Positions 5,686 to 51,403 of a stretch of DNA of 64,000 nucleotides are shown piece after piece. The notes under the pieces were generated by a model, which was not told the origin of the DNA, did not search any database, and was given only the letters and a program-made list of their open reading frames with translations. Origin of the DNA: Nannochloris sp. 'desiccata' (lineage: Eukaryota; Chlorophyta; Trebouxiophyceae; Chlorellales; Chlorellaceae); assembly GCA_019044685.2 (NCBI GenBank), contig JAGTXX020000010.1:248001-312000 (forward strand). The letters are read 5' to 3'. The translations under genes were made by a program, and so were the position numbers. Position 1 is the stretch's first letter; each line of letters begins with the position of its first letter.

Positions 5686-6442
5686 TTTCTAAATTTTGGG
5701 ATTTTATTACAGCTCCTTAGGTCTCTAAAGCTCTAAACCCTTTCTATAATGTCAATCGCAGGAGTAAAGTAATCAATGAATCAATAGAACGCCTCCAATG
5801 GAATGTTGCTAACATGACTACACCACCGATTTTTCTTTAATTTAGTGAAAAGAAGTTTTGAGCCTGAGAAACAAATTTTCAGACCCTGAGAAACAGGAGA
5901 AACATGGAGAGACTTTTGTTAATTACTCCAGAGAGACGTCCGCAGAACTTTTTTAATTACGCCTGCCAACCCCTGGTGCCATGGAGCACGAAAAGTTTTA
6001 CATGAAGAATGATCTTTGGTATCAGCAATCTTTGATTGGTGATCCTCTCGCTCGCTTCGTCAGCTTGCCACCCTTATCAGCATACAGGCAGGCAGCGCAC
6101 CTCACGCTTCAGCTAGGACACAGCTGTTCCCGACTGCTGGCTGCCTCCCTGCCCCTCGTCTGATAAACCGTCGCCGCCACCCAGCCGACGACGACGACCC
6201 TGCGACGGAAACCCACAGCCTCACCGACCCAGGATCAAAGCAATTCATATGGTTTATTTACACGAACCGTTAACGTAATGCTCATTATTTATTCATTATT
6301 AAAAGATGCACTAACAAAATTAAAGAAGAGCAGGGGCAAAGGAGGGCAACCAAGCAGGGTTGACAACATATTCAAAAACCATCCCCGCCTTTGCCATATA
6401 AAAACTCTACAAAATCATCTATTTATCAATCAAAACATTCAT

Positions 6443-8260
6443 TTAAAGCTGAGGGTCTAAATTTTTACCTTCTTTAGCCTTCATTGATTTGAGCAAGGCT
6501 TTTGCAGCCCAAACGTGAGCTGGCAATGGCAAGGTCACCACCGTTTCAATTACCCCGTCATTTTCATAAACGTCCTGGGGCAGATCACGTGCAAGGGTAG
6601 ATGGAGGGCGCAATGCCAGCAAATTGTACTTTACCATGGACAAAAAAATTTCGGAGCCCTTCTTTTCACTTCCCTTTCCCAACTCTTCCTTTAGCTCACT
6701 TGCCAGCACAGCATGCTGCGGCGCTGTGGTAATGCGCTCCAGCACCATCCTCCATTGAACGTCAGTCCAGAGAGGAGCCTCGCCACCTTTCGCAATGTAA
6801 ACTTCGGGTTCAAAACCTTGTATAACTGCACCAAGAGGGCCTGCTACCACTGCTTGCAATGCAGAACCCCAACTCCCCTTCAAATTCCTAGCTGCAGCCA
6901 CACACTGCTTCAACAGACCAATATTGCCGCCGCACCGCTGATACATTTCAGACCACTGATCTTTTGCATTAGCTAGATCCTCCTTCGTTTTGAAAGAGTC
7001 ATTGACGGTACCACGCCACCCTCCCGCAACACCATCACCATACATGAACTTCTCAGCTTCCTCTTCAGTTAGATCTCCAAGGACCTCTACTTCAAACTTG
7101 TCCTCGGTCATTCCAACTGCAAAGGGAAAGGAAAAGACGTCTAGTGATTTTCGACCAGAAAACCAAACAATGAGCATAAATGCAACCTACCTTGGGTTAG
7201 CCAATTAGCAAGGAAATAGTCAGAAGTGGCCAAGATCACGTGCATTAGACGTTTTTGCTTCGAGATGCCAATAAGAAATGCAAGCAATTGTTTCAGCTCT
7301 GGTTGCAAAGGATTTGGCTCCTTCCAGTCCATGAGGTCGTTTGCTTCATCTGCAAGTGGCATCGTCTGTAAGAAAGAGTTAGTTGGAGTGGAGCATAAAA
7401 AAATAAAAAACATATCAACAGCGTCGCCGAAAACTCAGTTGCTTTTTGCATACGTTTGCATCGTACCTATAACGATCACAGGCTTCCTGGGCAGCGGTTG
7501 CAAAGCCTCTAAAATTTTGTCGAACTTGTTGATTGTAGGCTCCAATTTTCCCTCATCTTCTTTCAATTCCTTTGCCAGTTCTGCCTCAAGATCACTCTTA
7601 AAGAATGGAAGAGACGACGACAACTTGACTTTAATCTTCAGGGAAGTCAACAGCGATATGAAACGATTCCGGCCTATGGACTTTTCAATTCTTTTAATTT
7701 TCCGAGAATCTAGTTTACTGACAAGCGCCTTGGAGACCTCGTCTGGACTACACACCGGTGTTTTGCGGCTGTTGATGTACAGGAACAATGGCCCAATATT
7801 CTGCTGCTCATACTGTCGAAGAAGCTCCTCCAACAATCTCTGCAGGAAAGAATGAATAGAAAGCTATTGTAAGAACTATGTTTGAACTAGTCTAGAAGAA
7901 GAAAAAGAGAGAGAGAACACGTCGTCGTTGCCCGGGCAAGGCAGACCAGCAAAGGAAGGCAGAACTCACCGACTTCCCACAATTACGAGGCCCAACCAGC
8001 ACAGTAACGAAACCAACTTCTCCACTGAACTTCTCTGTGAAATAATCCAGCTCAGTAACTCTGTTGTAGAAAGGATCTTGTGGGGGTGGCGGGGCGACTT
8101 TGGGAGCAAACAGCCCCGCCTGCACAATCATTGGTCCATTCCCTGCTCTCAAAGTTGGTTTTGCTTTTAGCAGAGGTGGACGCAAAGTAGATCGTCCACA
8201 TATGCTGTAGGATGGCACACTAGCTTGGATTCTCGCATTGGGTGGGGCAGCCAGCAACAT
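6443..8260 (-). CDS. archaeal-type (STAND-like) P-loop ATPase, E1 copy, four exons
   Basis: The exons are 8260-7970, 7839-7467, 7349-7191 and 7116-6443, all GT-AG, giving 498 aa. Exon 1 ends exactly after the Walker A motif GPRNCGKS (residues 90-97). The Walker B motif PVIVIDEANDLMDW (about 217-230) exists only after joining exons 2 and 3, which strongly supports the splicing model. The HVILATSDYFLANWL strand then resembles the sensor region of ATPase_2 (PF01637-type) proteins, and exon 4 holds a helical C-terminal domain (DLTEEEAEKFM, VTLPLPAHVWAAKALL). The first ~60 residues from this ATG lack Asp and Glu and are rich in Arg, Lys, Ser and Pro, like a mitochondrial or plastid presequence. 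A TATA-like run lies ~200 bp upstream. It is divergent from the SSB-like gene. Substrate and role are unknown; replication, DNA-handling or a STAND switch are possible. Confidence 0.8.
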
Positions 8261-8463
8261 CCAGTCTAATGCCTGCTGTTGAACAAGAGAGCAAGCTTGC
8301 AAGGGGCAGTATTCTACGCAGAATATCCGAGAGCTACGTAATAACGGCGCTTTTGCGTTTGTGGCAGTGAGATTCTTGACGGATTGAATTTTTGGATCTT
8401 CTCAAAGAACTTTTTCGTAGAAGCGAGTGCGCGGAGACTGTAGATATTCGTGATTTCAGCACA

Positions 8464-8475
8464 TTTATATATTTT
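8464..8475 (-). promoter_or_regulatory. TATA-like box of the E1 ATPase gene
   Basis: On the minus strand the sequence reads AAAATATATAAA, about 205 bp upstream of the proposed ATPase start at 8260. It is conserved in the other E copies. This is the best core-promoter candidate, because no earlier in-frame ATG exists. Confidence 0.4.
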
Positions 8476-8560
8476 ATCCCAACGCTTTTTGCTGAGGGAC
8501 TCCAAACTATCTACCTATTATCTGTACCTCAGGCCCTGAGGCGGTACAGGTCAAAGTCAT

Positions 8561-8636
8561 ATTTAGCCTCTCAGAGACATGAGAGACTTTATTATTTAGT
8601 CCCAGATAGACCTCCGCAGGACTATATCAATCCTTC
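8561..8636 (+). repeat. internal copy of the E left-terminal sequence
   Basis: The stretch with CTCTCAGAGACATGAGAGAC and a downstream CAGATAGACCTCCGCAGGACTA repeats, with divergence, the left end of E (for example 11648-11718). It lies between the ATPase and SSB-like genes in every E copy, as if E were built from two units sharing an end sequence. Confidence 0.55.
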
Positions 8637-8963
8637 TGCGGCCCTCTGTGACCTCAAAGCACCTTCTTTTTCAAATGATCTTTTCTGAAAACGGCGATCC
8701 TGGTAATCGGCGATCCTCTTCAGCTTTGCCGGTCCCCACCTCTTCTTAGCGGACCGGTAGCAGCCCACATATGGCAGCTTGAGCATCAGCCCCCTGCTGC
8801 AGTCTTGCTCGCTCACAGTCTGATCAGCTGGCGTCACCGCCGCCAGCGGCGGGCGATTAAGAACGGCAGATCCCGTTTTATTCAAAATATCTATATGTTT
8901 TTTTGAATCTCGAGTTCCAGCAAAGGACTTGTAAATTCCCTTTCATGTACTATGTTTGCCGTT

Positions 8964-8998
8964 GGGGGCCCCGGGGGAGCTTCAAATGAACGATGCAT
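8964..8998 (+). promoter_or_regulatory. conserved upstream block of the SSB-like gene (GC palindrome + GAACGATGCAT)
   Basis: GGGGGCCCCGGGGG (8964-8977) is followed by GAACGATGCAT (8988-8998), 83 bp before the start codon. The diverged E4 gene keeps the same order: a GGGCCC-rich palindrome at 28954-28967 and GAACGATGCAT at 28985-28995, 76 bp before its ATG. Conservation between otherwise diverged flanks suggests a control element. Confidence 0.45.
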
Positions 8999-9070
8999 CA
9001 ACAAGTTGACGTTCATGGGCGGGAAAGACACTTAAAGAGCTGTGGTGTATGTATAGTATCAAAAGTAATC

Positions 9071-9736
9071 ATGCCAAACCCGAAAGCAAGCATCAAATAT
9101 TCCGAATTCGACCCTTCTCTCGTCAAGTTTGGCCCCGTCGGCCGCTACTCCAAAGGCGGGAAATTCGTTCCTCTCTACGGGCCAAGCAAGCAGCGTATCG
9201 TCATTCAGACTGCCATCCTCTCCTGGCCTTTTGGTGTCAGCATCTATGAGAATCCCAGGACAGGAGAGAAAACCTACTCCATCGACGTGGCCTTCCGTGA
9301 CCTCCAGACCGACCCTAAAATCAAAACATTCTACGACAAGATGCTCGAGCTCAACGAGGTGGTCCTCTCCGAGGCAGCGGATCCCTCCTGCTCCTGGTTT
9401 GGCAAGCCTATGTCCAAGGAAGTGCTCAATGAAATATACCGCCCCCTGGTTAAGCAGCCGAAGGATCCAAGGTATAGCCCCACCATGAAGATCAAGATTC
9501 CCGTCGCCAAGGGGGTACCCACCCCAGAATTCTACAACGAGGCCAAGGAGCTGGTGAGCCTCGATTCCATCACCAAAGGATGCACCATCGTATGCATCCT
9601 CGAGTTGCGCCCAGTCTGGTTCGTGAACAAGACCTTTGGGGTCACCTGGCAGTTGGTACAGGCCTGCATCACCGGCAGGGCCAGCGCTGGCGGACCCCAG
9701 AAATTTAATGGGTATGCGTTTTTGGACGAGAACTAG
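9071..9736 (+). CDS. SSB-like protein (NCLDV DUF5871-type), E1 copy
   Basis: This is an intronless gene of 221 aa. I chose the ATG at 9071 because the E4 homologue starts at the equivalent codon with the same context (AATC-ATG-CCnAACCCG) and a TATA box at the right distance. Recognisable segments are a PFGVSIYE strand, TYSIDVAFRDL, a FYDKML helix, SWFGKPMSKE, IYRPLVKQPKDPRYSPTMKI, and near the C-terminus PVWFVNKTFGVTWQLVQA. From memory of the family these match viral DUF5871/gp2.5-like single-stranded-DNA-binding proteins of large algal DNA viruses. Codon choice (C/G third positions) is unlike the A/T-leaning host genes nearby, which supports transfer. It shares its upstream region with the divergent ATPase gene. 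DNA binding is inferred, not seen. Confidence 0.7.
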   Translation: MPNPKASIKYSEFDPSLVKFGPVGRYSKGGKFVPLYGPSKQRIVIQTAILSWPFGVSIYENPRTGEKTYSIDVAFRDLQTDPKIKTFYDKMLELNEVVLSEAADPSCSWFGKPMSKEVLNEIYRPLVKQPKDPRYSPTMKIKIPVAKGVPTPEFYNEAKELVSLDSITKGCTIVCILELRPVWFVNKTFGVTWQLVQACITGRASAGGPQKFNGYAFLDEN

Positions 9737-10402
9737 ACCACGTGCTGATACGCCTCCACGCCTGATTGATCATGTACCTCACCCCTGGTTTCTTATCTTC
9801 AGCATCAGGGTTTCTAATGTTGGAAAAACTAAAAATTAAATTTCCTCTTCTATGTCCATCCTTTGTTTTTGTTTTCTACTCGACAATGCTTCACCTGAGT
9901 ATCACATGCGATGTAACAATACAAGGTATACAGAACTGAAACTGCCTCCCGAAGGCAAAGAGCATCGACTGTTCTCTCTTCGAACCGCTCACCAGAACCT
10001 TCGTTCAAATCATTCCAGAGTCCCCGACCACCAAGAACTTCACTGAGGCTGCCTCTTCGAGCCTGTCTTTATCTTCTGAGACTTTAATGGTCCCCATTGA
10101 TGCTGTGTCATCCTCAGATAGGGTCTGCGCGTGTTCTAGTTGCAAGCATCGCCCCGTGGTAGTCTCCTTGAAACTCTCCGGCAAAAGCACCGCCTGCCCC
10201 GGGCGGCAAAGGGGCATAGGAAAACATCAGGGACAGCGCGCGCGCCTGCTCTCGCCATTGGAGCTCCACGACCATATACGCATCGGCTGAGCTCTTCAGT
10301 TGCCTTAAAAATGTACACTGCTTCATAGAAGCTCGAGCAAAAAGCCGGGGCAGATGGTCGGGCAAGCAGTCGGGGAAATACTCGGGGCAGGCTAGAAAGC
10401 CA

Positions 10403-10408
10403 TATAAA
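10403..10408 (+). promoter_or_regulatory. TATA box facing outward near the E1 right end
   Basis: CATATAAAGAGTTGCC is conserved in position in E2, E3 and, in variant form (CATATAAAGGGGTGCC), E4. Read rightward it points out of the element toward DUF971 (start 10895). The first downstream ATG opens only a 14-codon frame, so it may drive a non-coding leader or the next gene. The function is inferred. Confidence 0.4.
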
Positions 10409-10564
10409 GAGTTGCCCTGTCTAAAAAGAACAGTAAATACTCATCTCTGGTTCTGATGGCAAGCGCCTCTCTTGTTTTTTTAAAGAGGAGGTCTTCCTGA
10501 TCGCTGATCAATCCTCAGAATCAGCTTCAGATAGAGCGCCACAAAATTGTCTCTCTGGGCAGGT

Positions 10565-10595
10565 GTTTAGCCCCAATTGTACAGAGGGGCTAAAC
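10565..10595 (+). other. subterminal hairpin of element E
   Basis: GTTTAGCCCC and GGGGCTAAAC form a perfect 10-bp stem around an 11-nt loop (AATTGTACAGA). The same hairpin occurs at 16328-16358 (E2), 21970-22000 (E3), 46133-46161 (E5, 9-bp stem) and 63509-63537 (E6). It lies between two TCTCTC motifs close to the right terminus, a position suited to recombinase or replication recognition. No U-run follows, so it is not a terminator of bacterial type. Confidence 0.7.
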
Positions 10596-10642
10596 GAGGC
10601 CTTTTGACAGTCTCTCTCACCAATTTATTTTTGTCTCTCAAG

Positions 10643-10894
10643 CTAGCAATAGTATTGCTAGTGAAATTTGCAGGTCGTTTCTCGTTTCAGATAGAGGGGA
10701 AAATACACAAGTGCAAGTAAAAACTGAGAACGAGAAAAAACAGCAGACCAAGAAATAAAACTTACCCTAGAAATCGTTGCTGATCAACGCTGGCTATCCC
10801 CAGAGATCTGAGAGGCAGGTCGTTGACAAAGCATCCTAGAAGCTCTGCAAAATAGACGTTAAAATCTAAAAATATTTTCCTGACTCATCGGAAC
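10643..10894 (+). other. linker between E1 and DUF971 copy 1, with a copy-specific 110-bp block
   Basis: Just outside E1 is the near-palindrome CTAGCAATA-G-TATTGCTAG. The segment of about 110 bp at roughly 10694-10803 is present only here. The equivalent positions upstream of DUF971 copies 2 and 3 and of the inverse copy run straight from ...CGTTTC into AGAGATCTGAGAGG. Both edges share AGA, as expected for a microhomology deletion in the other copies. Confidence 0.6.
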
Positions 10895-11581: not shown

Positions 11582-12203
11582 AACATTGTGTAAAAGTAGA
11601 TAAAGCAAAGTTCATTTTTGAGAGAGAAAGTCTTGTGCTTGAGAGACAATTATTTAGGCTCTCAGAGACATGGAGAGACTTTTGTTAATTGGTCCAGAGA
11701 GACGTCCGCATGACTATTTTTACTACGCCTGCGAGCCCCTGGTGCCATGGAGCACGAAAGTTTTAAATGAAGAATGATCTTTCGTATCAGCGATCTTTGA
11801 TTGGTGATCCTCTCGCTTCGTCAGCTTGCCACCCTTATCAGCATACAGGCAGATAGTACACATCATGCTTCAGCTAGGACACGGCTGTTCCCGACTGCTG
11901 GCCGCCTCCCTGCCCCTCGTCTGATAAACCGTCGCCGCCACCCAGCCGACGACGACGACCCTGCGACGGAAACCCACAGCCTCACCGACCCAGGATCAAA
12001 GCAATTCATATGGTTTATTTACACGAACCGTTAACGTAATGCTCATTATTTATTCATTATTAAAAGATGCACTAACAAAATTAAAGAAGAGCAGGGGCAA
12101 AGGAGGGCAACCAAGCAGGGTTGACAACACATTCAAAAACCATCCCCGCCTTTGCCATATAAAAACTCTACAAAATCATCTATTTATCAATCAAAACATT
12201 CAT

Positions 12204-14023
12204 TTAAAGCTGAGGGTCTAAATTTTTACCTTCTTTAGCCTTCATTGATTTGAGCAAGGCTTTTGCAGCCCAAACGTGAGCTGGCAATGGCAAGGTCACC
12301 ACCGTTTCAATTACCCCGTCATTTTCATAAACGTCCTGGGGCAGATCACGTGCAAGGGTAGATGGAGGGCGCAATGCCAGCAAATTGTACTTTACCATGG
12401 ACAAAAAAATTTCGGAGCCCTTCTTTTCACTTCCCTTTCCCAACTCTTCCTTTAGCTCACTTGCCAGCACAGCATGCTGCGGCGCTGTGGTAATGCGCTC
12501 CAGCACCATCCTCCATTGAACATCAGTCCAGAGAGGAGCCTCGCCACCTTTCGCAATGTAAACTTCGGGTTCAAAACCTCGTGTAACTGCACCAAGAGGG
12601 CCTGCTACCACTGCTTGCAACGCAGAACCCCAACTCCCCTTCAAGCCCCTTGCTTCTGCCACACACTGCTTCAACAGACCAATATTGCCGCCGCACCGCT
12701 GATAAATTTCAGACCACTGATCTTTTGCATTAGCTAGATCCTCCTTCGTTTTGAGAGAGTCATTGACGATACCACGCCACCCTCCCGCAACACCATCACC
12801 ATACATAAACTTCTCAGCTTCCTCTTCAGTTAGATCTCCAAGGACCTCTACTCGAAACTTGTCCTCGGTCATTCCAACTGCAAAGGGAAAGGAAAAGACG
12901 TCTAGTGATTTTCGACCAGAAAACCAAACAATGAGCATAAATGCAACCTACCTTGGGTTAGCCAATTAGCAAGGAAATAGTCAGAAGTGGCCAAGATCAC
13001 GTGCATTAGACGTTTTTGCTTCGAGATGCCAATAAGAAATGCAAGCAATTGTTTCAGCTCTGGTTGCAAAGGATTTGGCTCCTTCCAGTCCATGAGGTCG
13101 TTTGCTTCATCTGCAAGTGGCATCGTTTGTAAGAAAGAGTTAGTTGGAGTGGAGCATAAAAAAATAAAAAACATATCAACAGCGTCGCCGAAAACTCAGT
13201 TGCTTTTTGCATACGTTTGCATCGTACCTATAACGATCACAGGCTTCCTGGGCAGCGGTTGCAAAGCCTCTAAAATTTTGTCGAACTTGTTGATTGTAGG
13301 CTCCAATTTTCCCTCATCTTCTTTCAATTCCTTTGCCAGTTCTGCCTCAAGATCACTCTTAAAGAATGGAAGAGACGACGACAACTTGACTTTAATCTTC
13401 AGGGAAGTCAACAGCGATATGAAACGATTCCGGCCTATGGACTTTTCAATTCTTTCAATTTTCCGAGAATCTAGTTTACTGACAAGCGCCTTGGAGACCT
13501 CGTCTGGACTACGCACTGGCGTGAAGCGAGCGTCGACTTTCAGGAACAATGGCCCAATATTCTGCTGCTCATACTGTCGAAGAAGCTCCTCCAACAATCT
13601 CTGCAAGAAATAATGAACAGAACGCGGTTTTAAAAACGGTAGTTGAACTAGTCTAGAAGAAGAAAAAGAGAGAGAGAGAACACGTCGTCGTTGCCCGGGT
13701 AAGGCAGACCAGCAAAGGAAGGCAGAACTCACCGACTTCCCACAATTACGAGGCCCAACCAGCACAGTAACGAAACCAACTTCTCCACTGAACTTCTCTG
13801 TGAAATAATCCAGCTCAGTAACTCTGTTGTAGAAAGGATCTTGTGGGGGTGGCGGGGCGACTTTGGGAGCAAACAGCCCCGCCTGCACAATCATTGGTCC
13901 ATTCCCTGCTCTCAAAGTTGGTTTTGCTTTTAGCAGAGGTGGACGCAAAGTAGATCGTCCACATATGCTGTAGGATGGCACACTAGCTTGGATTCTCGCA
14001 TTGGGTGGGGCAGCCAGCAACAT
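12204..14023 (-). CDS. archaeal-type P-loop ATPase, E2 copy, four exons
   Basis: The exons are 14023-13733, 13600-13228, 13110-12952 and 12877-12204 (498 aa), with the same splice sites as the E1 copy. The Walker A motif GPRNCGKS ends exon 1, and Walker B forms across introns 2 and 3. It differs from E1 mainly in one patch of exon 2 plus intron 1, where FLKVDARFTPVRS replaces FLYINSRKTPVCS and the intron sequence changes with it. Exons 3 and 4 are almost the same as E1. The patchy difference suggests gene conversion among copies. It reads as intact. Confidence 0.78.
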
Positions 14024-14833
14024 CCAGTCTAATGCCTGCTGTTGAACAAGAGAGCAAGCTTGCAAGGGGCAGTATTCTACGCAGAATATTCGAGAGCTAT
14101 GTAATAACGGCGCTTTTGCGTTTGTGGCAGCGAGATTCTCGGCGGATTGAATTTTTGGATCTTCTCAAAGAACTTTTTCTTAGAAGCGAGTGCGCGGAGA
14201 CTGTAGATATTCGTGATTTCAGCACATTTATATATTTTATCCCAACGCTTTTTGCTGAGGGACTCCAAACTATCTACCTATTATCTGTACCTCAGGCCCT
14301 GAGGCGGTACAGGTCAAAGTCATATTTAGCCTCTCAGAGACATGAGAGACTTTATTATTTAGTCCCAGATAGACCTCCGCAGGACTATATCAATCCTTCT
14401 GCGGCCCTCTGTGACCTCAAAGCACCTTCTTTTTCAAATGATCTTTTCTGAAAACGGCGATCCTGGTAATCGGCGATCCTCTTCAGCTTTGCCGGTCCCC
14501 ACCTCTTCTTAGCGGACCGGTAGCAGCCCACATATGGCAGCTTGAGCATCAGCCCCCTGCTGCAGTCTTGCTCGCTCACAGTCTGATCAGCTGGCGTCAC
14601 CGCCGCCAGCGGCGGGCGATTAAGAACGGCAGATCCCGTTTTATTCAAAATATCTATATGTTTTTTTGAATCTCGAGTTCCAGCAAAGGACTTGTAAATT
14701 CCCTTTCATGTACTATGTTTGCCGTTGGGGGCCCCGGGGGAGCTTCAAATGAACGATGCATCAACAAGTTGACGTTCATGGGCGGGAAAGACACTTAAAG
14801 AGCTGTGGTGTATGTATAGTATCAAAAGTAATC

Positions 14834-15499
14834 ATGCCAAACCCGAAAGCAAGCATCAAATATTCCGAATTCGACCCTTCTCTCGTCAAGTTTGGCCCCG
14901 TCGGCCGCTACTCCAAAGGCGGGAAATTCGTTCCTCTCTACGGGCCAAGCAAGCAGCGTATCGTCATTCAGACTGCCATCCTCTCCTGGCCTTTTGGTGT
15001 CAGCATCTATGAGAATCCCAGGACAGGAGAGAAAACCTACTCCATCGACGTGGCCTTCCGTGACCTCCAGACCGACCCTAAAATCAAAACATTCTACGAC
15101 AAGATGCTCGAGCTCAACGAGGTGGTCCTCTCCGAGGCAGCGGATCCCTCCTGCTCCTGGTTTGGCAAGCCTATGTCCAAGGAAGTGCTCAATGAAATAT
15201 ACCGCCCCCTGGTTAAGCAGCCGAAGGATCCAAGGTATAGCCCCACCATGAAGATCAAGATTCCCGTCGCCAAGGGGGTACCCACCCCAGAATTCTACAA
15301 CGAGGCCAAGGAGCTGGTGAGCCTCGATTCCATCACCAAAGGATGCACCATCGTATGCATCCTCGAGTTGCGCCCAGTCTGGTTCGTGAACAAGACCTTT
15401 GGGGTCACCTGGCAGTTGGTACAGGCCTGCATCACCGGCAGGGCCAGCGCTGGCGGACCCCAGAAATTTAATGGGTATGCGTTTTTGGACGAGAACTAG
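14834..15499 (+). CDS. SSB-like protein (DUF5871-type), E2 copy
   Basis: The 221-aa product appears identical to the E1 copy, and the surrounding ~2 kb is also nearly unchanged, in contrast to the variable ATPase gene on the other side. Start codon and upstream GC palindrome/GAACGATGCAT block are as in E1. Identity over this length points to very recent duplication or ongoing homogenisation. Confidence 0.7.
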   Translation: MPNPKASIKYSEFDPSLVKFGPVGRYSKGGKFVPLYGPSKQRIVIQTAILSWPFGVSIYENPRTGEKTYSIDVAFRDLQTDPKIKTFYDKMLELNEVVLSEAADPSCSWFGKPMSKEVLNEIYRPLVKQPKDPRYSPTMKIKIPVAKGVPTPEFYNEAKELVSLDSITKGCTIVCILELRPVWFVNKTFGVTWQLVQACITGRASAGGPQKFNGYAFLDEN

Positions 15500-16544
15500 A
15501 CCACGTGCTGATACGCCTCCACGCCTGATTGATCATGTACCTCACCCCTGGTTTCTTATCTTCAGCATCAGGGTTTCTAATGTTGGAAAAACTAAAAATT
15601 AAATTTCCTCTTCTATGTCCATCCTTTGTTTTTGTTTTCTACTCGACAATGCTTCACCTGAGTATCACATGCGATGTAACAATACAAGGTATACAGAACT
15701 GAAACTGCCTCCCGAAGGCAAAGAGCATCGACTGTTCTCTCTTCAAACCGCTCACCAGAACCTTCGTTCAAATCATTCCAGAGTCCCCGACCACCAAGAA
15801 CTTCACTGAGGCTGCCTCTTCGAGCCTGTCTTTATCTTCTGAGACTTTAATGGTCCCCATTGATGCTGTGTCATCCTCAGATAGGGTCTGCGCGTGTTCT
15901 AGTTGCAAGCATCGCCCCGTGGTAGTCTCCTTGAAACTCTCCGGCAAAAGCACCGCCTGCCCCGGGCGGCAAAGGGGCATAGGAAAACATCAGGGACAGC
16001 GCGCGCGCCTGCTCTCGCCATTGGAGCTCCACGACCATATACGCATCGGCTGAGCTCTTCAGTTGCCTTAAAAATGTACACTGCTTCATAGAAGCTCGAG
16101 CAAAAAGCCGGGGCAGATGGTCGGGCAAGCAGTCGGGGAAATACTCGGGGCAGGCTAGAAAGCCATATAAAGAGTTGCCCTGTCTAAAAAGAACAGTAAA
16201 TACTCATCTCTGGTTCTGATGGCAAGCGCCTCTCTTGTTTTTTTAAAGAGGAGGTCTTCCTGATCGCTGATCAATCCTCAGAATCAGCTTCAGATAGAGC
16301 GCCACAAAATTGTCTCTCTGGGCAGGTGTTTAGCCCCAATTGTACAGAGGGGCTAAACGAGGCCTTTTGACAGTCTCTCTCACCAATTTATTTTTGTCTC
16401 TCAAGCTAGCAATAGTATTGCTAGTGAAATTTGCAGGTCGTTTCTCGTTTCAGAGATCTGAGAGGCAGGTCGTTGACAAAGCATCCTAGAAGCTCTGCAA
16501 AATAGACGTTAAAATCTAAAAATATTTTCCTGACTCATCGGAAC

Positions 16545-17233
16545 ATGCAAAGAGCGCTGGTTAGCGCCAAAGACTTGAAAGTCATTACCCACCTTGTGAC
16601 ACAATTCAGATCAAATCTAAGCTCTCAAACCAACGTATGGGCGACTGCAGTTACCTTGGATAATAAAGCGAAGGTAAGCTTGGATATATTGCACACTTCA
16701 GTTTAACATCGTGGACCATCCAATTTTTAACATCTCATTTTGGGATGTTGCCGCTGCCGTTGGCCGCCCCGCCACTTTACAAGCAACGTAATCTAGACAG
16801 TGATATGAATCCACACTGATCCTTTACATATACACAATATCTAACTCTAAATAGTGTATTATTTCCAGGCTTTAGAAATCGAATTCAACACAGGAGAGCT
16901 TTATCGGTTCCCGGCGGAGCTTCTTCGAGCTGAAAGGCCCAGAAACGACTGGAGGCAGTGCTGAAGGCTTTTTGGAGAAGCTATGGGTGGCGTTGGCTGC
17001 GGGGCCGTCGTTATATTAATATTTTAGATGTAGAACCAGTGGGCAGGTACGCTTTAAGAATACAATTTGACGATTTACATACTACAGGAATATTTAGTTA
17101 TTCGTTCCTGCATTCTCTAGGCCTGGAAAAATATAAAAGAATGAGGCAATATATAAAAGCGTTGAAGCAACAGGGGTTGAGTAGAGATCCTAGATCTCTT
17201 AGTCGTGTATCCAAACCAAGTAAAGATAGATAG
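16545..17233 (+). pseudogene. DUF971 copy 2, disrupted by a micro-inversion
   Basis: Exon 1 (16545-16673) and the splice sites match copy 1. In exon 2 (from 16869) the segment at about 16937-17007 is the reverse complement of the copy 1 segment 11286-11354. After ELLRAER the frame meets a stop, so the conserved second half (RYINILDVEPVGRYALRI) is out of reach. Flanking bases are otherwise unchanged. The ~69-bp flip has GCCC/GGGC at its ends. Confidence 0.85.
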
Positions 17234-17851
17234 AACATTGTGTAAAAGTAGATAAAGCAAAGTTCATTTTTGAGAGAGAAAGTCTTGTGCTTGAGAGACA
17301 ATTATTTAGGCTCTCAGAGACATGGAGAGACTTTTGTTAATTGGTCCAGAGAGACGTCCGCATGACTATTTTTACTACGCCTGCGAGCCCCTGGTGCCAT
17401 GGAGCACGAAAGTTTTAAATGAAGAATGATCTTTCGTATCAGCGATCTTTGATTGGTGATCCTCTCGCTTCGTCAGCTTGCCACCCTTATCAGCATACAG
17501 GCAGATAGTACACATCATGCTTCAGCTAGGACACGGCTGTTCCCGACTGCTGGCCGCCTCCCTGCCCCTCGTCTGATAAACCGTCGCCGCCACCCAGCCG
17601 ACGACGACGACCCTGCGACGGAAACCCACAGCCTCACCGACCCAGGATCAAAGCAATTCATATGGTTTATTTACACGAACCGTTAACGTAATGCTCATTA
17701 TTTATTCATTATTAAAAGATGCACTAACAAAATTAAAGAAGAGCAGGGGCAAAGGAGGGCAACCAAGCAGGGTTGACAACACATTCAAAAACCATCCCCG
17801 CCTTTGCCATATAAAAACTCTACAAAATCATCTATTTATCAATCAAAACAT

Positions 17852-19665
17852 TCATTTAAAGCTGAGGGTCTGGGTATTTTTACCTTCTTTAGCCTTCATT
17901 GATTTGAGCAAGGCTTTTGCAGCCCAAACGTGAGCTGGCAATGGCAAGGTCACCACCGTTTCAATTACCCCGCCATTTTCATACACGTCCTGGGGCAGAT
18001 CACGTGCAAGGGTAGATGGAGGGCGCAATGCCAGCAAATTGTACTTTACCATGGACAAAAGAATGTCCTCGCCGCTTTCTCCCAATTCTTCCTCTATCTC
18101 ACTTGCCAGCACAGCATGCTGCGGCGCTGTGGTAATGCGCTCCAGCACCATCCTCCATTGACCTTTAGTCCAGAGAGGGTCCTCGCCGCCTTTCTGAATG
18201 TACACACTTGGTTTGAAACCTCGTGTAACTGCACCAAGAGGGCCTGCTACCACTGCTTGCAATGCAGAATCCCAATTCCCCTTCAAATTCCTAGCTGCAG
18301 CCACACACTGCTTCAACAGACCAATATTGCCGCCGCACCGCTGATACATTTCAGACCACTGATCTTTTGCATTAGCTAGATCCTCCTTCGTTTTGAAAGA
18401 GTCATTGACGATACCACGCCACCCTCCCGCAACACCATCACCATACATAAACTTCTCAGCTTCCTCTTCAGTTAGATCTCCAAGGACCTCTACTTCAAAC
18501 TTGTCCTCGGTCATTCCAACTGCAAAGGGAAAGGAAAAGACGTCTAGTGATTTTCGACCAGAAAACCAAACAATGAGCATAAATGCAACCTACCTTGGGT
18601 TAGCCAATTAGCAAGGAAATAGTCAGAAGTGGCCAAGATCACGTGCATTAGACGTTTTTGCTTCGAGATGCCAATAAGAAATGCAAGCAATTGTTTCAGC
18701 TCTGGTTGCAAAGGATTTGGCTCCTTCCAGTCCATGAGGTCGTTTGCTTCATCTGCAAGTGGCATCGTTTGTAAGAAAGAGTTAGTTGGAGTGGAGCATA
18801 AAAAAATAAAAAACATATCAACAGCGTCGCCGAAAACTCAGTTGCTTTTTGCATACGTTTGCATCGTACCTATAACGATCACAGGCTTCCTGGGCAGCGG
18901 TTGCAAAGCCTCTAAAATTTTGTCGAACTTGTTGATTGTAGGCTCCAATTTTCCCTCATCTTCTTTCAATTCCTTTGCCAGTTCTGCCTCAAGATCACTC
19001 TTAAAGAATGGAAGAGACGACGACAACTTGACTTTAATCTTCAGGGAAGTCAACAGCGATATGAAACGATTCCGGCCTATGGACTTTTCAATTCTTTCAA
19101 TTTTCCCAGAATCTAGTTTACTGACAAGCGCCTTGGAGACCTCGTCTGGACTACGCACTGGCGTGAAGCGAGCGTCGACTTTCAGGAACAATGGCCCAAT
19201 ATTCTGCTGCTCATACTGTCGAAGAAGCTCCTCCAACAATCTCTGCAAGAAATAATGAACAGAACGCGGTTTTAAAAACGGTAGTTGAACTAGTCTAGAA
19301 GAAGAAAAAGAGAGAGAGAGAACACGTCGTCGTTGCCCGGGTAAGGCAGACCAGCAAAGGAAGGCAGAACTCACCGACTTCCCACAATTACGAGGCCCAA
19401 CCAGCACAGTAACGAAACCAACTTCTCCACTGAACTTCTCTGTGAAATAATCCAGCTCAGTAACTCTGTTGTAGAAAGGATCTTGTGGGGGTGGCGGGGC
19501 GACTTTGGGAGCAAACAGCCCCGCCTGCACAATCATTGGTCCATTCCCTGCTCTCAAAGTTGGTTTTGCTTTTAGCAGAGGTGGACGCAAAGTAGATCGT
19601 CCACATATGCTGTAGGATGGCACACTAGCTTGGATTCTCGCATTGGGTGGGGCAGCCAGCAACAT
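17852..19665 (-). CDS. archaeal-type P-loop ATPase, E3 copy, four exons
   Basis: The exons are 19665-19375, 19242-18870, 18752-18594 and 18519-17852 (496 aa). Exons 1-3 match E2, including the FLKVDARFTPVRS patch. Exon 4 carries the second variant set: GFKPSVYIQKGGEDPLWTKG in place of GFEPEVYIAKGGEAPLWTDV, a shortened EIEEELGESGEDIL in place of ELKEELGKGSEKKGSEIF, and a different tail (GKNTQTLSFK). Walker A and the spliced Walker B are intact. Confidence 0.78.
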
Positions 19666-22875: not shown

Positions 22876-23493
22876 AACATTGTGTAAAAGTAGATAAAGC
22901 AAAGTTCATTTTTGAGAGAGAAAGTCTTGTGCTTGAGAGACAATTATTTAGGCTCTCAGAGACATGGAGAGACTTTTGTTAATTGGTCCAGAGAGACGTC
23001 CGCATGACTATTTTTACTACGCCTGCGAGCCCCTGGTGCCATGGAGCACGAAAGTTTTAAATGAAGAATGATCTTTCGTATCAGCGATCTTTGATTGGTG
23101 ATCCTCTCGCTTCGTCAGCTTGCCACCCTTATCAGCATACAGGCAGATAGTACACATCATGCTTCAGCTAGGACACGGCTGTTCCCGACTGCTGGCCGCC
23201 TCCCTGCCCCTCGTCTGATAAACCGTCGCCGCCACCCAGCCGACGACGACGACCCTGCGACGGAAACCCACAGCCTCACCGACCCAGGATCAAAGCAATT
23301 CATATGGTTTATTTACACGAACCGTTAACGTAATGCTCATTATTTATTCATTATTAAAAGATGCACTAACAAAATTAAAGAAGAGCAGGGGCAAAGGAGG
23401 GCAACCAAGCAGGGTTGACAACACATTCAAAAACCATCCCCGCCTTTGCCATATAAAAACTCTACAAAATCATCTATTTATCAATCAAAACAT

Positions 23494-29029: not shown

Positions 29030-29060
29030 AGAACCGAGTATACATAATATCAAATCAATC

Positions 29061-45107: not shown

Positions 45108-46084
45108 GTGTTAATCCATTATACATGAGTATAAATATGCAATTTTACTGTTTGATTTTCTCTGAAATAGCACCACCGGAATGCAAAGAATTTCATTTTC
45201 TCGGCGCCTGACCCAATTCTCTTTTCCTAAATTAAATTTTCTTCTTTCAAATCGTTTTACAAAACAGCTATTATACAACAGAATAGATTAACAAATACAT
45301 GAATACGTCAAATGTCTACATTTTCTAGCTTTCTAATCCCTGCTTCAGCTAGTATTTGTTGCTGTTTATTAAGTTTCATTACTGCCAGCACTGCTGTGTC
45401 CTTGGCTTGTGCTAGCTCTATGCATTTCTTAGCCGTCCCTGTTAGATGTACCATCTGTATTCTAACTACCCTATTATTAATCTCAGTTATTAATGTTAAC
45501 GCACACCAAATCTGGATACAGGAAAAGAAGACAAGTTAAAAGAAGAAGGCGGCGGACGTAAAAATTGAATTTTACTATCATCTCTGTCTTGAATTTTAAA
45601 ATACCTTTCTATATTCATCTCTGCTACATCGAATCATGCATACATTGCTAATTGGATTGTAGTATTTCACTTGAAAGGAAGCTAATGCTGAGCCGAGTCC
45701 GTAATCTCCAAACGTCTGTTGAAGACAGCCGCGGAAAACCGAAAGCAACGCCGCCTCATCTGAAATTATATAACAAAATGAATGATTAGAACAATTGAAA
45801 CAAAAAGCGGCATTTTTGATGGAATTTTCATTTAATAAAGAACTTCTAGAACCAAATTTCAGTCCAATTAAACATGTTTTCCCAATAATATAAAATTTGG
45901 TGCCATTAAAATATAATCTTACTTAGAGTTTCATCTAATCTTCCGTCTTTCCAGGTTAGATTAAAGACAAAGTATCGATTCTTAAACCTCACCATGATGT
46001 TTTCATTAGAGTTTTTTTTAAAATAAAGCCCGCATGGGCTGTCGAAGTGGGTTTGTGCCAACACTTGAACTTCACTATTGCTAG
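45108..46084. other. intergenic region between the RAVE-like gene and E5
   Basis: Nearly 1 kb of AT-rich DNA that should contain the promoter of the minus-strand RAVE-like gene. A 75-codon frame at 45312-45539 is hydrophobic but lacks support. The last bases (TTCACTATTGCTAG, 46071-46084) are shared with the E6 flank and so may belong to the element end. Confidence 0.5.
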
Positions 46085-46509
46085 CTTGAGAGACAAAAAT
46101 AAATTGGTGAGAGAGACTGCCAAAAGGCCTCGTTTAGCCCCTCTGTACAATTGGGGCTAAAAACCTGCCCAGAGAGACAATTTTGTGGCGCTCTATCTGA
46201 AGCTGATTCTGAGGATTGATCAGCGATCAGGAAGACCTCTTCTTTAAAAAAACAAGAGAGGCGCTTGCCATCAGAGCCAGAGATGAGTGTTTACTATTCT
46301 TTTTAGACAGGGCAGCTCTTTATATGGCTTTCTAGCCTGCCCCGAGTATTTCCCCGACTGCTTGCCCGACCATCTGCCCCGGCTTTTTGCTCGAGCTTCT
46401 ATGAAGCAGTGTACATTTTTAAGGCAACTGAAGAGCTCAGCCGATGCGTATATGCTCGTGGAGCTCCAATGGCGAGAGCAGGCGCGCGCGCTGTCCCTGA
46501 TGTTTTCCT

Positions 46510-46878
46510 ATGCCCCTTTGCCGCCCCGGGCAGGCGGTGCTTTTGCCGGAGAGTTTCAAGGAGACTACCACGGGGCGATGCTTGCAACTAGAAGACGCGC
46601 AGACCCTATCTGAGGATGACACAGCATCAATGGGGACCATTAAAGTCTCAGAAGATAAAGACAGGCTCGAAGAGGCAGCCTCAGTGAAGTTCTTGGTGGT
46701 CGGGGACTCTGGCGGTGATTTGAACGAAGGTTCTGGTGAGCGGTTTGAAGAGAGAACAGTCGATGCTCTTTGCCTTCGGGAGGCAGTTTCAGTTCTGTAT
46801 ACCTTGTATTGTTACATCGCATGTGATACTCAGGTGAAGCATTGTCGAGTAGAAAACAAAAACAAAGGATGGACATAG
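46510..46878 (+). CDS. possible third gene of element E (122 aa), low confidence
   Basis: An open frame convergent with the SSB-like gene encodes an acidic segment (LEDAQTLSEDDTASMGTIKV, then SEDKDRLEEAASVKFLVV). In E1-E3 the same frame stops earlier, about 50 residues sooner, because of small changes near the equivalent of 46713. A second overlapping frame (from the ATG near 46401) encodes LRQLKSSADAYMLVELQWRE. One spliced or frameshifted gene could include both. No family recognised. Confidence 0.22.
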   Translation: MPLCRPGQAVLLPESFKETTTGRCLQLEDAQTLSEDDTASMGTIKVSEDKDRLEEAASVKFLVVGDSGGDLNEGSGERFEERTVDALCLREAVSVLYTLYCYIACDTQVKHCRVENKNKGWT

Positions 46879-46991
46879 AAGAGGAAATTTAATTTTTAGT
46901 TTTTTCAACATTAGAAACCCTGATGCTGAAGATAAGAAACCAGGGGTGAGGTACATGATCAATCAGGCGTGGAGGCGTATCAGCACGTGGT

Positions 46992-47657
46992 CTAGTTCTC
47001 GTCCAAAAACGCATACCCATTAAATTTCTGGGGTCCGCCAGCGCTGGCCCTGCCGGTGATGCAGGCCTGTACCAACTGCCAGGTGACCCCAAAGGTCTTG
47101 TTCACGAACCAGACTGGGCGCAACTCGAGGATGCATACGATGGTGCATCCTTTGGTGATGGAATCAAGGCTCACCAGCTCCTTGGCCTCGTTGTAGAATT
47201 CTGGGGTGGATACCCCCTTGGCGACGGGAATCTTGATCTTCATGGTGGGGCTATACCTTGGATCCTTCGGCTGCTTAACCAGGGGGCGGTATATTTCATT
47301 GAGCACTTCCTTGGACATAGGCTTGCCAAACCAGGAGCAGGAGGGATCCGCTGCCTCGGAGAGGACCACCTCGTTGAGCTTGAGCATCTTGTCGTAGAAT
47401 GTTTTGATTTTAGGGTCGGTCTGGAGGTCACGGAAGGCCACGTCGATGGAGTAGGTTTTCGCTCCTGTCCTGGGATCTTCATAGATGCTGACACCAAAAG
47501 GACAGGAGAGGATGGCAGTCTGAATGACGATACGCTGCTTGTTTGGCCCGTAGAGAGGAACGAATTTCCCGCCTTTGGAGTAGCGGCCGACGGGGCCAAA
47601 CTTGACGAGAGAAGGGTCGAATTCGGAATATTTGATGCTTGCTTTCGGGTTTGGCAT
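46992..47657 (-). CDS. SSB-like protein (DUF5871-type), E5 copy
   Basis: An intact 221-aa copy on the minus strand with a handful of substitutions relative to E1-E3 (for example YGPNKQRIV for YGPSKQRIV, ILSCPFGVSIYEDPRTGAKT for the W, N and E versions). Two of these changes move it toward the E4 paralogue (LSCRFGVSVYEDPKTGQK), consistent with conversion or with E5 being an older branch. The start codon and upstream block are as in the other copies. Confidence 0.7.
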   Translation of the reverse strand: MPNPKASIKYSEFDPSLVKFGPVGRYSKGGKFVPLYGPNKQRIVIQTAILSCPFGVSIYEDPRTGAKTYSIDVAFRDLQTDPKIKTFYDKMLKLNEVVLSEAADPSCSWFGKPMSKEVLNEIYRPLVKQPKDPRYSPTMKIKIPVAKGVSTPEFYNEAKELVSLDSITKGCTIVCILELRPVWFVNKTFGVTWQLVQACITGRASAGGPQKFNGYAFLDEN

Positions 47658-48467
47658 GATTACTTTTGATACTATACATACACCACAGCTCTTTAAGTGT
47701 CTTTCCCGCCCATGAACGTCAACTTGTTGATGCATCGTTCATTTGAAGCTCCCCCGGGGCCCCCAACGGCAAACATAGTACATGAAAGGGAATTTACAAG
47801 TCCTTTGCTGGAACTCGAGATTCAAAAAAACATATAGATATTTTGAATAAAACGGGATCTGCCGTTCTTAATCGCCCGCCGCTGGCGGCGGTGACGCCAG
47901 CTGATCAGACTGTGAGCGAGCAAGACTGCAGCAGGGGGCTGATGCTCAAGCTGCCATATGTGGGCTGCTACCGGTCCGCTAAGAAGAGGTGGGGACCGGC
48001 AAAGCTGAAGAGGATCGCCGATTACAAGGATCGCCGTTTTCAGAAAAGATCATTTGAAAAAGAAGGTGCTTTGAGGTCACAGAGGGCCGCAGAAGGATTG
48101 ATATAGTCCTGCGGAGGTCTATCTGGGACTAAATAATAAAGTCTCTCATGTCTCTGAGAGGCTAAATATGACTTTGACCTGTACCGCCTCAGGGCCTGAG
48201 GTACAGATAATAGGTAGATAGTTTGGAGTCCCTCAGCAAAAAGCGTTGGGATAAAATATATAAATGTGCTGAAATCACGAATATCTACAGTCTCCGCGCA
48301 CTCGCTTCTAAGAAAAAGTTCTTTGAGAAGATCCAAAAATTCAATCCGTCAAGAATCTCGCTGCCACAAACGCAAAAGCGCCGTTATTACGTAGCTCTCG
48401 AATATTCTGCGTAGAATACTGCCCCTTGCAAGCTTGCTCTCTTGTTCAACAGCAGGCATTAGACTGG

Positions 48468-50285
48468 ATGTTGCTGGCTGCCCCACCCAATGCGAGAATC
48501 CAAGCTAGTGTGCCATCCTACAGCATATGTGGACGATCTACTTTGCGTCCACCTCTGCTAAAAGCAAAACCAACTTTGAGAGCAGGGAATGGACCAATGA
48601 TTGTGCAGGCGGGGCTGTTTGCTCCCAAAGTCGCCCCGCCACCCCCACAAGATCCTTTCTACAACAGAGTTACTGAGCTGGATTATTTCACAGGGAAGTT
48701 CAGTGGAGAAGTTGGTTTCGTTACTGTGCTGGTTGGGCCTCGTAATTGTGGGAAGTCGGTGAGGTCTGCTTTCCTTTGCTGATCTGCCTTGCCCGGGCAA
48801 CGACGACGTGTTCTCTCTCTCTCTTTTTCTTCTTCTAGACTAGTTCAAACATAGTTCTTACAATAGCTTTCTATTCATTCTTTCCTGCAGAGATTGTTGA
48901 AGGAGCTTCTTCGACAGTATGAGCAGCAGAATATTGGGCCATTGTTCCTGTACATCAACAGCCGCAAAACACCGGTGTGTAGTCCAGACGAGGTCTCCAA
49001 GGCGCTTGTCAGTAAATTAGATTCTGGGAAAATTGAAAGAATTAGAAAGTCCATAGGCCGGAATCGTTTCATATCGCTGTTGACTTCCCTGAAGATTAAA
49101 GTCAAGTTGTCGTCGTCTCTTCCATTCTTTAAGAGTGATCTTGAGGCAGAACTGGCAAAGGAATTGAGAGAGGATGAGGGAAAATTGGAGCCTACGATCA
49201 ACAAGTTCGACAAAATTTTAGAGGCTTTGCAACCGCTGCCCAGGAAGCCTGTGATCGTTATAGGTACGATGCAAACGTATGCAAAAAGCAACACTGGGTT
49301 TTCGGCGATGCTGTTGATATTTTTTAATTTTTACGTTCCGCTCCAACTAACTCTTTACAATAAATATGTCACTTGCAGATGAGGCAAACGACCTCATGGA
49401 CTGGAAGGAGCCAGATCCTTTGCAGCCAGAGCTGAAACAATTGCTCAGCTTTTTAGTTTCCATTTCGAAAGAGGATCGCCTAGCCCACGTGATCTTGGCC
49501 ACTTCTGACTATTTGCTTGCTAATTGGCTAACCCAAGGTAGGTTGCATTTATGTTCATTGTTTGGTTTTCTGGTCGAAAATCACTAAACGTCTTTTCCTT
49601 TCCCTTTGCAGTTGGAATGACCGAGGACAAGTTTCGAGTAGAGGTCCTTGGAGATCTAACTGAAGAGGAAGCTGAGAAGTTTATGTATGGTGATGGTGTT
49701 GCGGGAGGGTGGCGTGGTATCGTCAATGACTCTCTCAAAACGAAGGAGGATCTAGCTAATGCAAAAGATCAGTGGTCTGAAATTTATCAGCGGTGCGGCG
49801 GCAATATTGGTCTGTTGAAGCAGTGTGTGGCAGAAGCAAGGGATTTGAAGGGGAGTTGGGGTTCTGCGTTGCAAGCAGTGGTAGCAGGCCCTCTTGGTGC
49901 AGTTACACGAGGTTTCAAACCAAGTGTGTACATTCAGAAAGGCGGTGAGGACCCTCTCTGGACTAAAGGTCAATGGAGGATGGTGCTGGAGCGCATTACC
50001 ACAGCGCCGCAGCATGCTGTGCTGGCAAGTGAGCTAAAGGAAGAGTTGGGAAAGGGAAGTGAAAAGAAGGGCTCCGAAATTTTTTTGTCCATGGTAAAGT
50101 ACAATTTGCTGGCATTGCGCCCTCCATCTACCCTTGCACGTGATCTGCCCCAGGACGTGTATGAAAATGGCGGGGTAATTGAAACGGTGGTGACCTTGCC
50201 ATTGCCAGCTCACGTTTGGGCTGCAAAAGCCTTGCTCAAATCAATGAAGGCTAAAGAAGGTAAAAATTTAGACCCTCAGCTTTAA
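48468..50285 (+). CDS. archaeal-type P-loop ATPase, E5 copy, four exons
   Basis: The exons are 48468-48758, 48891-49263, 49379-49537 and 49612-50285 (498 aa). Walker A GPRNCGKS ends exon 1; the donor is GTGAGG here. Walker B forms across the exon 2/3 junction. Variant patches: exon 2 is of the FLYINSRKTPVCS type, exon 3 of the E4 type (SKEDRLAHVIL), and exon 4 combines the GFKPSVYIQKGGEDP patch (E3/E4) with the ELKEELGKGSEKKGSEIF patch and LDPQL tail (E1/E2). This is a clear recombinant of the two exon 4 variants. Confidence 0.78.
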
Positions 50286-50907
50286 ATGAATGTTTTGATT
50301 GATGAATAGATGATTTTGTAGAGTTTTTATATGGCAAAGGCGGGGATGGTTTTTGAATGTGTTGTCAACCCTGCTTGGTTGCCCTCCTTTGCCCCTGCTC
50401 TTTTTTAATTTTGTTAGTGCATCTTTTAATAATGAATAAATAATGAGCATTACGTTAACGGTTCATGTAAATAAACCATATGAATTGCTTTGATCCTGGG
50501 TCGGTGAGGCTGTGGGTTTCCGTCGCAGGGTCGTCGTCGTCGGCTGGGTGGCGGCGACGGTTTATCAGACGAGGGGCAGGGAGGCGGCCAGCAGTCGGGA
50601 ACAGCCGTGTCCTAGCTGAAGCATGATGTGTACTATCTGCCTGTATGCTGATAAGGGTGGCAAGCTGACGAAGCGAGAGGATCACCAATCAAAGATCGCT
50701 GATACGAAAGATCATTCTTCATTTAAAACTTTCGTGCTCCATGGCACCAGGGGCTCGCAGGCTTAGTAAAAATGGTCATGCGGACGTCTCTCTGGACCAA
50801 TTAACAAAAGTCTCTCCTTGTCTCTGAGAGCCTAAATAATTGTCTCTCAAGCACAAGACTTTCTCTCTCAAAAATGAACTTTGCTTTATCTACTTTTACA
50901 CAATGTT

Positions 50908-51306: not shown

Positions 51307-51403
51307 AGCCATTTTAGAAACTCGGAAAAGCCTTTAAGCCAGGAACAGCCATTTTACGCACAGTTTTTTGCATATAACCTTTTAAAATACATTTCTAAAC
51401 ATA

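Follow-up and report, generated by a model that had tools for sequence, protein, structure and literature searches.

The stretch of DNA analysed here (the window, 64,000 nucleotides, C10:248001-312000) comes from the green alga Nannochloris sp. 'desiccata', whose genome amounts to 21.55 Mb in 18 contigs. It holds an array of repeated units, flanked by ordinary host genes, in which an ATPase of the ATPase_2 family and a single-stranded-DNA-binding protein (SSB) are encoded divergently between inverted, GAGAGAC-rich ends. A sequence-only reading had taken this gene pair to be the core of a mobile element. The analysis described below, made throughout on sequence data from this one genome, supports a mobile element and points to a tyrosine recombinase (YR), a broken copy of which lies within the window and had been overlooked, as the enzyme that probably moves it.

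Self-BLAST of the window shows direct copies from 5.9 to 25.8 kb, with a period of 5.64-5.77 kb and 95-98% identity; in inverted orientation there is a copy at 46.1-50.8 kb, and another begins at 63.4 kb. Four units, of about 4.8 kb each, are complete and have divergent ATPase_2 and SSB genes; a fifth is composite and a sixth is cut by the window edge, so that of the five complete copies and one partial copy previously counted, the partial one stands and the five become four and a composite. Unit 1 (5860..10651, + strand) consists of a left end, the ATPase_2 gene (-), an internal left-end-like repeat, the SSB gene (+) and a right end; its left arm has diverged to GCCTGAGAAACAA and is preceded by the octamer GAAGTTTT (5852-5859). 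Unit 2 (11635..16414, +; ATPase 14023-12204, -; SSB 14834-15499, +) is followed by a spacer of about 0.87 kb that has been duplicated with the element (16415..17286, +), and then by unit 3 (17287..22056, +; ATPase on the - strand, SSB 20476-21141, +). The complete inverted unit lies at 46076..50854 (-), with its SSB at 46992-47657 (-) and its ATPase at 48468-50285 (+). Of the further inverted unit (63452..64000, -) the window contains the right end and the adjoining part; it extends beyond the window to C10:312715, where it breaks off inside the SSB.

The composite unit (22929..31375, +) has a left end, an ATPase gene (25305-23494, -), an internal left-end repeat, a recombinase gene (-), a diverged SSB (+) and a right end. 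From its left end at about 22929 it tracks the other direct copies only as far as 25910; beyond this point come the reversed recombinase gene, the diverged and frame-disrupted SSB (P0012; 29061..29675, +) and the right end at 31355-31375, followed by AAAAAATTT. A small two-exon-looking gene (GNQMDDLIKKLIAKNELSNID...) at 28067-28500, upstream of this SSB, is also common to the loci L024 and L027 elsewhere in the genome. Directly outside the right end of unit 1, and of this unit only, is a 110-bp insertion (10691-10801) resembling a miniature inverted-repeat transposable element, which has ten further places in the genome among the matches listed, at 95-99% identity. The 0.87-kb inter-unit spacer has matches in this C10 array only (among 39 of 119 candidates scored). 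The most likely origin of the array is therefore a single insertion that was duplicated along with its flank, both in tandem and in inverted orientation.

The ATPase_2 gene of unit 1 (6443..8260, -) has four exons (8260-7970, 7839-7467, 7349-7191 and 7116-6443), with GT..AG splice sites that were read by eye. The spliced protein matches PF01637 with an E value of 8.5e-17 and 62.1 bits (cut-off 33.2), and contains the Walker A motif GPRNCGKS, the Walker B motif VIVIDEAN and VIVIDEANDLMDW, in agreement with its original description as a spliced, archaeal-type P-loop ATPase. For exon 4 the ratio of nonsynonymous to synonymous substitution rates (dN/dS) is 0.34-1.18, the values for L019 against unit 2 and against the inverted unit being 1.16 and 1.18; the exon-4 rows of L011, L013 and L019 each contain one stop. 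Searches of the ATPase and the SSB against PDB sequences found nothing relevant. An ATPase element of the type found at locus L029 occupies C10:1055652-1059005 and stops 1.2 kb before the end of contig C10. This position recalls the subtelomeric ATPases of Galdieria; the other copies of this type on contigs of known length are not so close.

The SSB of unit 1 (9071..9736, +) is a single-exon protein of 221 residues that matches DUF5871 (PF19196) at 5.7e-15 and 55.8 bits (cut-off 26.9), so that the profile searches proposed earlier placed both proteins above cut-off. An AlphaFold model made with 11 sequences has a mean predicted local distance difference test (pLDDT) score of 85.6 and a predicted template-modelling (pTM) score of 0.83. 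Foldseek against the PDB matched this model to the Enc34 SSB, African swine fever virus CP312R and T7 gp2.5 (5odj, 7yeq and 1je5), with E values of 3e-6 to 1.3e-5 and moderate TM-scores by query length of 0.43-0.49; over the PDB matches as a whole the ranges are 3e-6 to 5e-5 and 0.41-0.49. Against the viral library BFVD the best match was M1I5V1 (3e-25, 35% identity), with TM-scores up to 0.85; the named matches, among the best 50 of 152 below 0.001, include Tetraselmis virus 1, Heterosigma akashiwo virus 01, EsV-1 and mimivirus. DUF5871 proteins are also listed in the excerpted account of the Chrysochromulina parva virus genome (PMC12085832). Profile and model agree that the window SSB is of the giant-virus/gp2.5 kind, as had been claimed, with predicted binding of single-stranded DNA. 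In a large protein set it has 16 sequence relatives, comprising the window copies, Nannochloris copies and proteins from other sources at 48-70% identity. Not one base differs among the SSB genes of units 1-3. Comparisons of the copies outside the array with one another and with the array give dN/dS of 0.22-0.54 (the L018 row, out of frame, was excluded); the disrupted SSB of the composite unit departs from that range, at 0.25-1.72 (1.22 against L017 and 1.72 against L024), and the inverted against the direct units give 0.86.

Both ends of the units carry inverted CTTGAGAGACAA arms, as the description of GAGAGAC-rich inverted ends implied, the left arm of unit 1 being the diverged one. The left ends read ...AAAGTYTT-NN-GCTTGAGAGACAA and the right ends TTGTCTCTCAAGCNAGCAATA-N-AAAAATTT, so that each arm stands beside an octamer, AAAGTYTT on the left and AAAAATTT on the right. 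The arrangement is asymmetric, the arm being 2 bp from the left octamer and 8-9 bp from the right one. The search for further copies that had been suggested found these ends on 14 contigs with differing flanks. Right-end DNA has at least 26 matches in the genome and left-end DNA at least 34 (window copies included, and for the left end the internal left-end-like repeats also), and a 26-base left-end pattern with at most 2 mismatches occurs 15 times, including 4 in the window, against 0 for the reversed control.

What lies between or beside the dispersed ends varies. An ATPase is accompanied by a partial SSB at L014 (SSB residues 8-140) and L012 (residues 135-221), and by a YR fragment at L010; L024 has an SSB and a coiled-coil open reading frame (ORF), and C9:834449-841007 a diverged ATPase and a coiled-coil ORF. 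The complete element on contig C8, 5702 bp from its left end at 521340 to its right end at 527041, has a YR, an SSB and a coiled-coil ORF. Extra cargo ORFs with long coiled-coil-like repeats lie between or beside GAGAGAC ends at L017, L024, L028 and L030; by eye, the coiled-coil ORFs show a presequence-like stretch at the N-terminus and perhaps a membrane segment. Homology between the loci mostly stops at the ends. Among the loci compared, only L011 and L013 share a flank (116 bp on the left), apart from a few short stretches.

These dispersed copies bear on the simplest alternative, that ATPase_2 and DUF5871 are ordinary host gene families which have multiplied through tandem and segmental duplication alone. 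The in-window repeat does include spacer DNA, and several copies in the genome are mutual duplicates (L019/L020 and L018/L021). The same ends recur, however, on 14 contigs with different flanks and different internal genes, and the boundaries of homology mostly coincide with the ends, which makes this reading highly improbable. Whether the repeat ends coincide with a segmental duplication only, a question raised with the original claim, has a divided answer: the copies in the window do share the spacer, but the dispersed copies have other flanks, and duplication is not the whole story.

The C8 element bears on a viral origin, in which the SSB, ATPase and YR would be remnants of a decayed integrated virus or polinton-like element, spread by duplication. 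The fold match of the SSB to giant-virus proteins speaks for it, and YR integrases have been discussed with polinton-like and giant viruses in several papers. Yet the complete, YR-bearing C8 element is too small for capsid, packaging ATPase or polymerase genes, its ORFs all being of at most 215 codons apart from a 590-codon YR-SSB frame, and compact layouts of 4-8 kb with the same ends recur. A Pfam scan of 20 among the 66 ORFs listed for the window matched no capsid protein, packaging ATPase or DNA polymerase, and scans of IMG/VR contigs found no relative of the SSB or of the recombinase, by an exact peptide pattern that makes the search insensitive. We rejected a viral origin on the grounds that the complete element has no room for capsid and polymerase and that the viral-contig scans were empty, and consider it very unlikely. 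The 590-codon frame itself (L016:9124 to L017:893) joins the C-terminal part of a YR to the N-terminal part of an SSB without interruption, and is a possible recombinase-SSB fusion.

The octamers outside the arms are conserved. Over 14 columns they contain 8.75 bits on the left and 7.13 bits on the right, against 0.91 and 0.42 in control columns, as counted from 17 left and 15 right flanks (the joint on C8 being taken once per side, and array duplicates, L013, L019/L020 and the degraded-arm ends of L053, L059-L064 and the internal one in L030 being omitted). The octamers of the two sides differ and yet resemble each other. One left octamer, AAAGTCTT, recurs at different loci on C5, C6, C8 and C10. 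A joint in the order right end, core, left end occurs once in the genome (C8:521323-521362; control 0). The arms around a short AAARNTTT core, the single head-to-tail joint, the shared left octamer and the resemblance of the differing octamers all count for excision and integration by a recombinase.

The same termini have to be weighed against a rival reading, in which the units are non-autonomous DNA transposons of the DDE type that duplicate 8 bp of their target and are mobilised in trans, for instance by the KDZ (Kyakuja-Dileera-Zisupton) transposase encoded in the window. L010 has the octamer GAAGTTTT on both sides, the C9 element (L028/L031) has ATGAT near both ends, and CAG begins both the KDZ ends and several left ends (CAGCTTGAG), the KDZ element itself making a 7-bp duplication. 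On the other hand, the ends differ in the distance between arm and octamer; in 4 of the 6 dispersed elements that could be read on both sides the octamers differ, the left one resembling AAAGTYTT and the right one AAA(A/T)TT; and one left octamer serves at loci on four contigs. The KDZ ends continue as CAGGTAAGTCACC, unlike the GAGAGAC ends, and no DDE-type domain was found in the part of the element ORFs that was scanned with Pfam. A simple 8-bp target duplication was rejected, given one full match in six elements and a left octamer common to different loci, and the KDZ transposase was rejected as the mover of the units on account of its different ends and their asymmetric termini. A DDE-type origin is unlikely, although it is the strongest of the competing explanations.

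The KDZ transposon lies at 51213-62941, in the spacer of the array, with CAGGTAAGTCACC ends and the 7-bp duplication TCAGCTC. It shares the window with the units and is a DNA transposon with a short target duplication, but it has other ends and another enzyme and is not part of the unit; KDZ domains in the window are confined to it, and none was found at the loci of the ATPase/SSB family that were read. Its inverted arms of 5.13 kb (51260-56393 and 57808-62941) are 99.98% identical, a near-perfect palindrome that may be real or an effect of assembly. The KDZ domain has equal-scoring matches on C6 and C15, and seven matches genome-wide. Repeat coordinates on C17 and C15 are mirror images (with a constant sum of 660438 on C17), which suggests very large palindromes or assembly folds.

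The recombinase of the window is of a type that we call type B (26065..27916, -). It lies between the fourth ATPase and the diverged SSB and is broken into two frames (26065-27366 and 27299-27916), in which the boxes R (CGGRSQ), LGRN, MKW and QATY can be recognised; the segment C10:274095-274640 is 36% identical to the YR of L029 (E 1.8e-29). Elsewhere this second, longer type has an open frame of up to 1002 codons (L021), adjoins ATPase_2 genes, and is intact and multi-copy, with copies on C3, C8 and C9 that are 71-97% identical in DNA. Type A, with boxes R ... H/K/RxxR ... W ... Y, is found between GAGAGAC ends in the C8 element and at L019 and L020, which form a duplicated pair. It is damaged in all of these, and also in L030, where left ends are present and the stretch read has no right end; fragments occur at L023 (a C-terminal piece) and at L010 and L012 (N-terminal pieces). 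A third YR type at L047 (C11:1257200-1258800), with boxes HLMR, GEW and NSY, has no ATPase nearby.

A joint profile of 12 Nannochloris rows, aligned by hhalign with 11 phage integrases, gives a score of 45.6, an E value of 3e-5 and a probability of 73%. The R, HxxR, GH/W and Y boxes coincide in this alignment, and none of 30 column-shuffled controls scored above 14.4. H, K or R serves as the second basic residue, and W occupies the GH position. With fewer rows the joint profile scores 43.5 (probability 58%), against 15.9-20.1 for reversed and SSB controls. Single-sequence matches are weak and do not decide the matter (phrog_1 integrase 0.0015 and 0.035; PF00589 0.082 and 0.066). In a large protein set, relatives of the YR are found in Nannochloris only (1 in one search and 5 in another, in which the 7,997 best word-sharing candidates were scored). 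The dN/dS of YR-B is 0.09-0.19 in 9 of 10 pairs, the tenth being incalculable, and as judged from these sequences YR-B is under purifying selection; one YR-A pair gives 0.20.

ATPase_2 genes lie within 6 kb at 11 of the 18 YR loci. Random placement of the 60 ATPase and 18 YR places on identical contigs (with the length of C4 assumed to be 1.1 Mb and the positions of the array units rounded) gave a mean of 1.53, and none of 20,000 placements reached 11. The SSB is within 6 kb of an ATPase or YR at 5 of 11 loci, and among the loci read outside the window array it is paired with an ATPase only in the partial form seen at L014 and L012. The claim that the pair forms the core of a mobile element therefore survives in part: the dispersed, shared ends argue for a mobile element, and the linkage of the SSB (5 of 11) and of the ATPase to the YR (11 of 18) argues against the pair as its core. 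We rejected ATPase and SSB as a self-sufficient core because of the YR inside the same ends, these proximity counts, and the dispersed pairs with partial SSBs only.

We consider it likely that these elements form a family of YR DNA transposons, Crypton-like in their working principle, with the ATPase_2 ATPase and, in part of the family, the gp2.5-like SSB as accessory genes. The tyrosine recombinase is probably the enzyme that moves the elements. It would bind the inverted CTTGAGAGACAA arms at both ends and excise the element as a circle, in which the right end, an AAARNTTT core and the left end would be joined; the circle would then be re-inserted at AAARTTT-like sites. The ATPase may assist in the choice of target or the assembly of the synapse, and the SSB may protect or anneal single strands while the circle is copied or repaired. 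On the best reading the window units are derivatives from which the YR has been deleted. Since no type-A YR was detected in them, they would move only in trans, by means of a recombinase from elsewhere.

Several observations weigh against this picture of a YR transposon family. At seven of the 18 YR loci an ATPase within 6 kb is lacking; when the duplicate loci (L019/L020/L023 and L018/L021) are counted once the association falls to 8 of 15, and treating C8:349 and C8:393, which are 90% identical, as one locus too lowers it to 7 of 14. The SSB has neither partner nearby at 6 of 11 loci. All YR-A copies seen are fragments or carry frameshifts or stops, and the intact YR is of type B, whose outer ends look unlike the GAGAGAC ends. 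Profiles of type A only (E 0.031) and of type B only (E 0.014) are not significant, the SSB control giving 0.06. Unrelated families match the N-terminal piece of YR-A as well (Glyco_hydro_6 0.0055, RHINO 0.0073), Pfam gives DDE_Tnp_1 at 0.3 for one YR-B protein, and NCBIfam and PDB sequence searches did not recognise the recombinases. The AlphaFold model of the window YR has a mean pLDDT of only 37.1, and several of the YR-B dS values are saturated (1.8-3.2). The left and right octamers are fully identical in only one (L010) of the six dispersed elements read on both sides, and the arms are further apart than in textbook recombinase sites. We infer movement and circles, because no empty site or strain polymorphism was seen, the comparison covering the flanks of the loci read in this one genome.

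The nearest known systems are the Cryptons, DNA elements with a YR and a proposed circular intermediate, which the accessible sections of Kojima and Jurka (2011, PMC3212892) describe as having no terminal inverted repeats. The same sections describe YR sites in which 6-8 bp are flanked by inverted arms of 11-13 bp, a layout similar to the present one, and mention an extra gene in some Cryptons (a Ulp1 protease in oomycetes). The likeness lies in a YR with residues of the R-H-R-Y type (in the joint profile), inverted arms around a short core with a circle proposed, extra genes, and no reverse transcriptase, as judged in the C8 element from ORF length and from the motifs YADD/YVDD/FADD in ORFs of at least 110 codons. 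By the same measures the C8 element has no reverse transcriptase or RNase H beside its YR, unlike a YR retrotransposon of the DIRS/Ngaro type. The differences are that the Nannochloris elements have conserved inverted CTTGAGAGACAA arms at both ends, and that they carry an ATPase_2 and a gp2.5-like SSB and a recombinase that falls below Pfam's cut-off. Cryptons recombine at short terminal direct repeats of 4-6 bp; the Nannochloris elements have conserved octamers at both ends, fully identical in 1 of 6 dispersed elements. Given the inverted end arms, we say that the family works like a Crypton and do not file it as one: it is best read as a variant of YR DNA transposons, likened to Cryptons by working principle and not by tree. 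Similarly, the SSB model has the same fold as the gp2.5-like SSBs of T7, Enc34, African swine fever virus (CP312R) and giant viruses, but unlike these it is encoded on repeated elements of an algal genome, and the C8 copy shares an open frame with a recombinase.

The host genes of the window include a glucan water dikinase-like gene (1697-5407) and a RAVE/Rav1-like gene (36-41 kb). Rfam and tRNA scans of the window gave no matches.

Expansions of archaeal-type ATPases are known from Galdieria and Asterochloris (PMC6629376, PMC9812998 and PMC6652019, each consulted as excerpts); the host here is Nannochloris and not Galdieria. Asterochloris is a trebouxiophyte like Nannochloris, and both have multi-copy archaeal-type ATPases; the excerpted report lists 26 archaeal ATPases and an expanded 100-member family of 'DNA binding-recombination proteins' (PMC6652019). 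For Galdieria, the 211 archaeal ATPase copies were read as horizontally acquired, and in the passages available their origin was later called disputable, with a targeted 'non-random duplication mechanism' (PMC6629376); subtelomeric duplication of the ATPases is described in the corresponding part of PMC9812998. The available parts of these three papers invoke transfer and stress, or subtelomeric or unknown duplication, and describe no ATPase-bearing mobile element. Nor did a named transposon class with this gene pair turn up in the accessible portions of the literature searched, as the sequence-only reading had anticipated.

How these ATPases arose and spread in algae is disputed, and ATPase_2 genes beside YR genes, and inside ends that are repeated genome-wide, offer a definite mechanism that can be tested. 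Some bacterial transposons choose their targets through an AAA+ partner, and Helitrons carry SSBs of the RPA type. If the proposal is true, eukaryotes would have, in a YR transposon that brings along an ATPase and an SSB of its own, a parallel to the AAA+-partnered bacterial transposons and to the SSB-carrying Helitrons. Tentatively, and with less confidence than we have in the transposon family itself, the elements may represent a new class of eukaryotic DNA transposon, with a YR, a dedicated AAA-like ATPase and a virus-type SSB. Such a class could be the hidden vehicle of 'archaeal ATPase' expansions in unrelated algae (Nannochloris, Asterochloris and perhaps Galdieria), in which case the ATPases would be cargo or machinery of the element and not genes for adaptation to stress.

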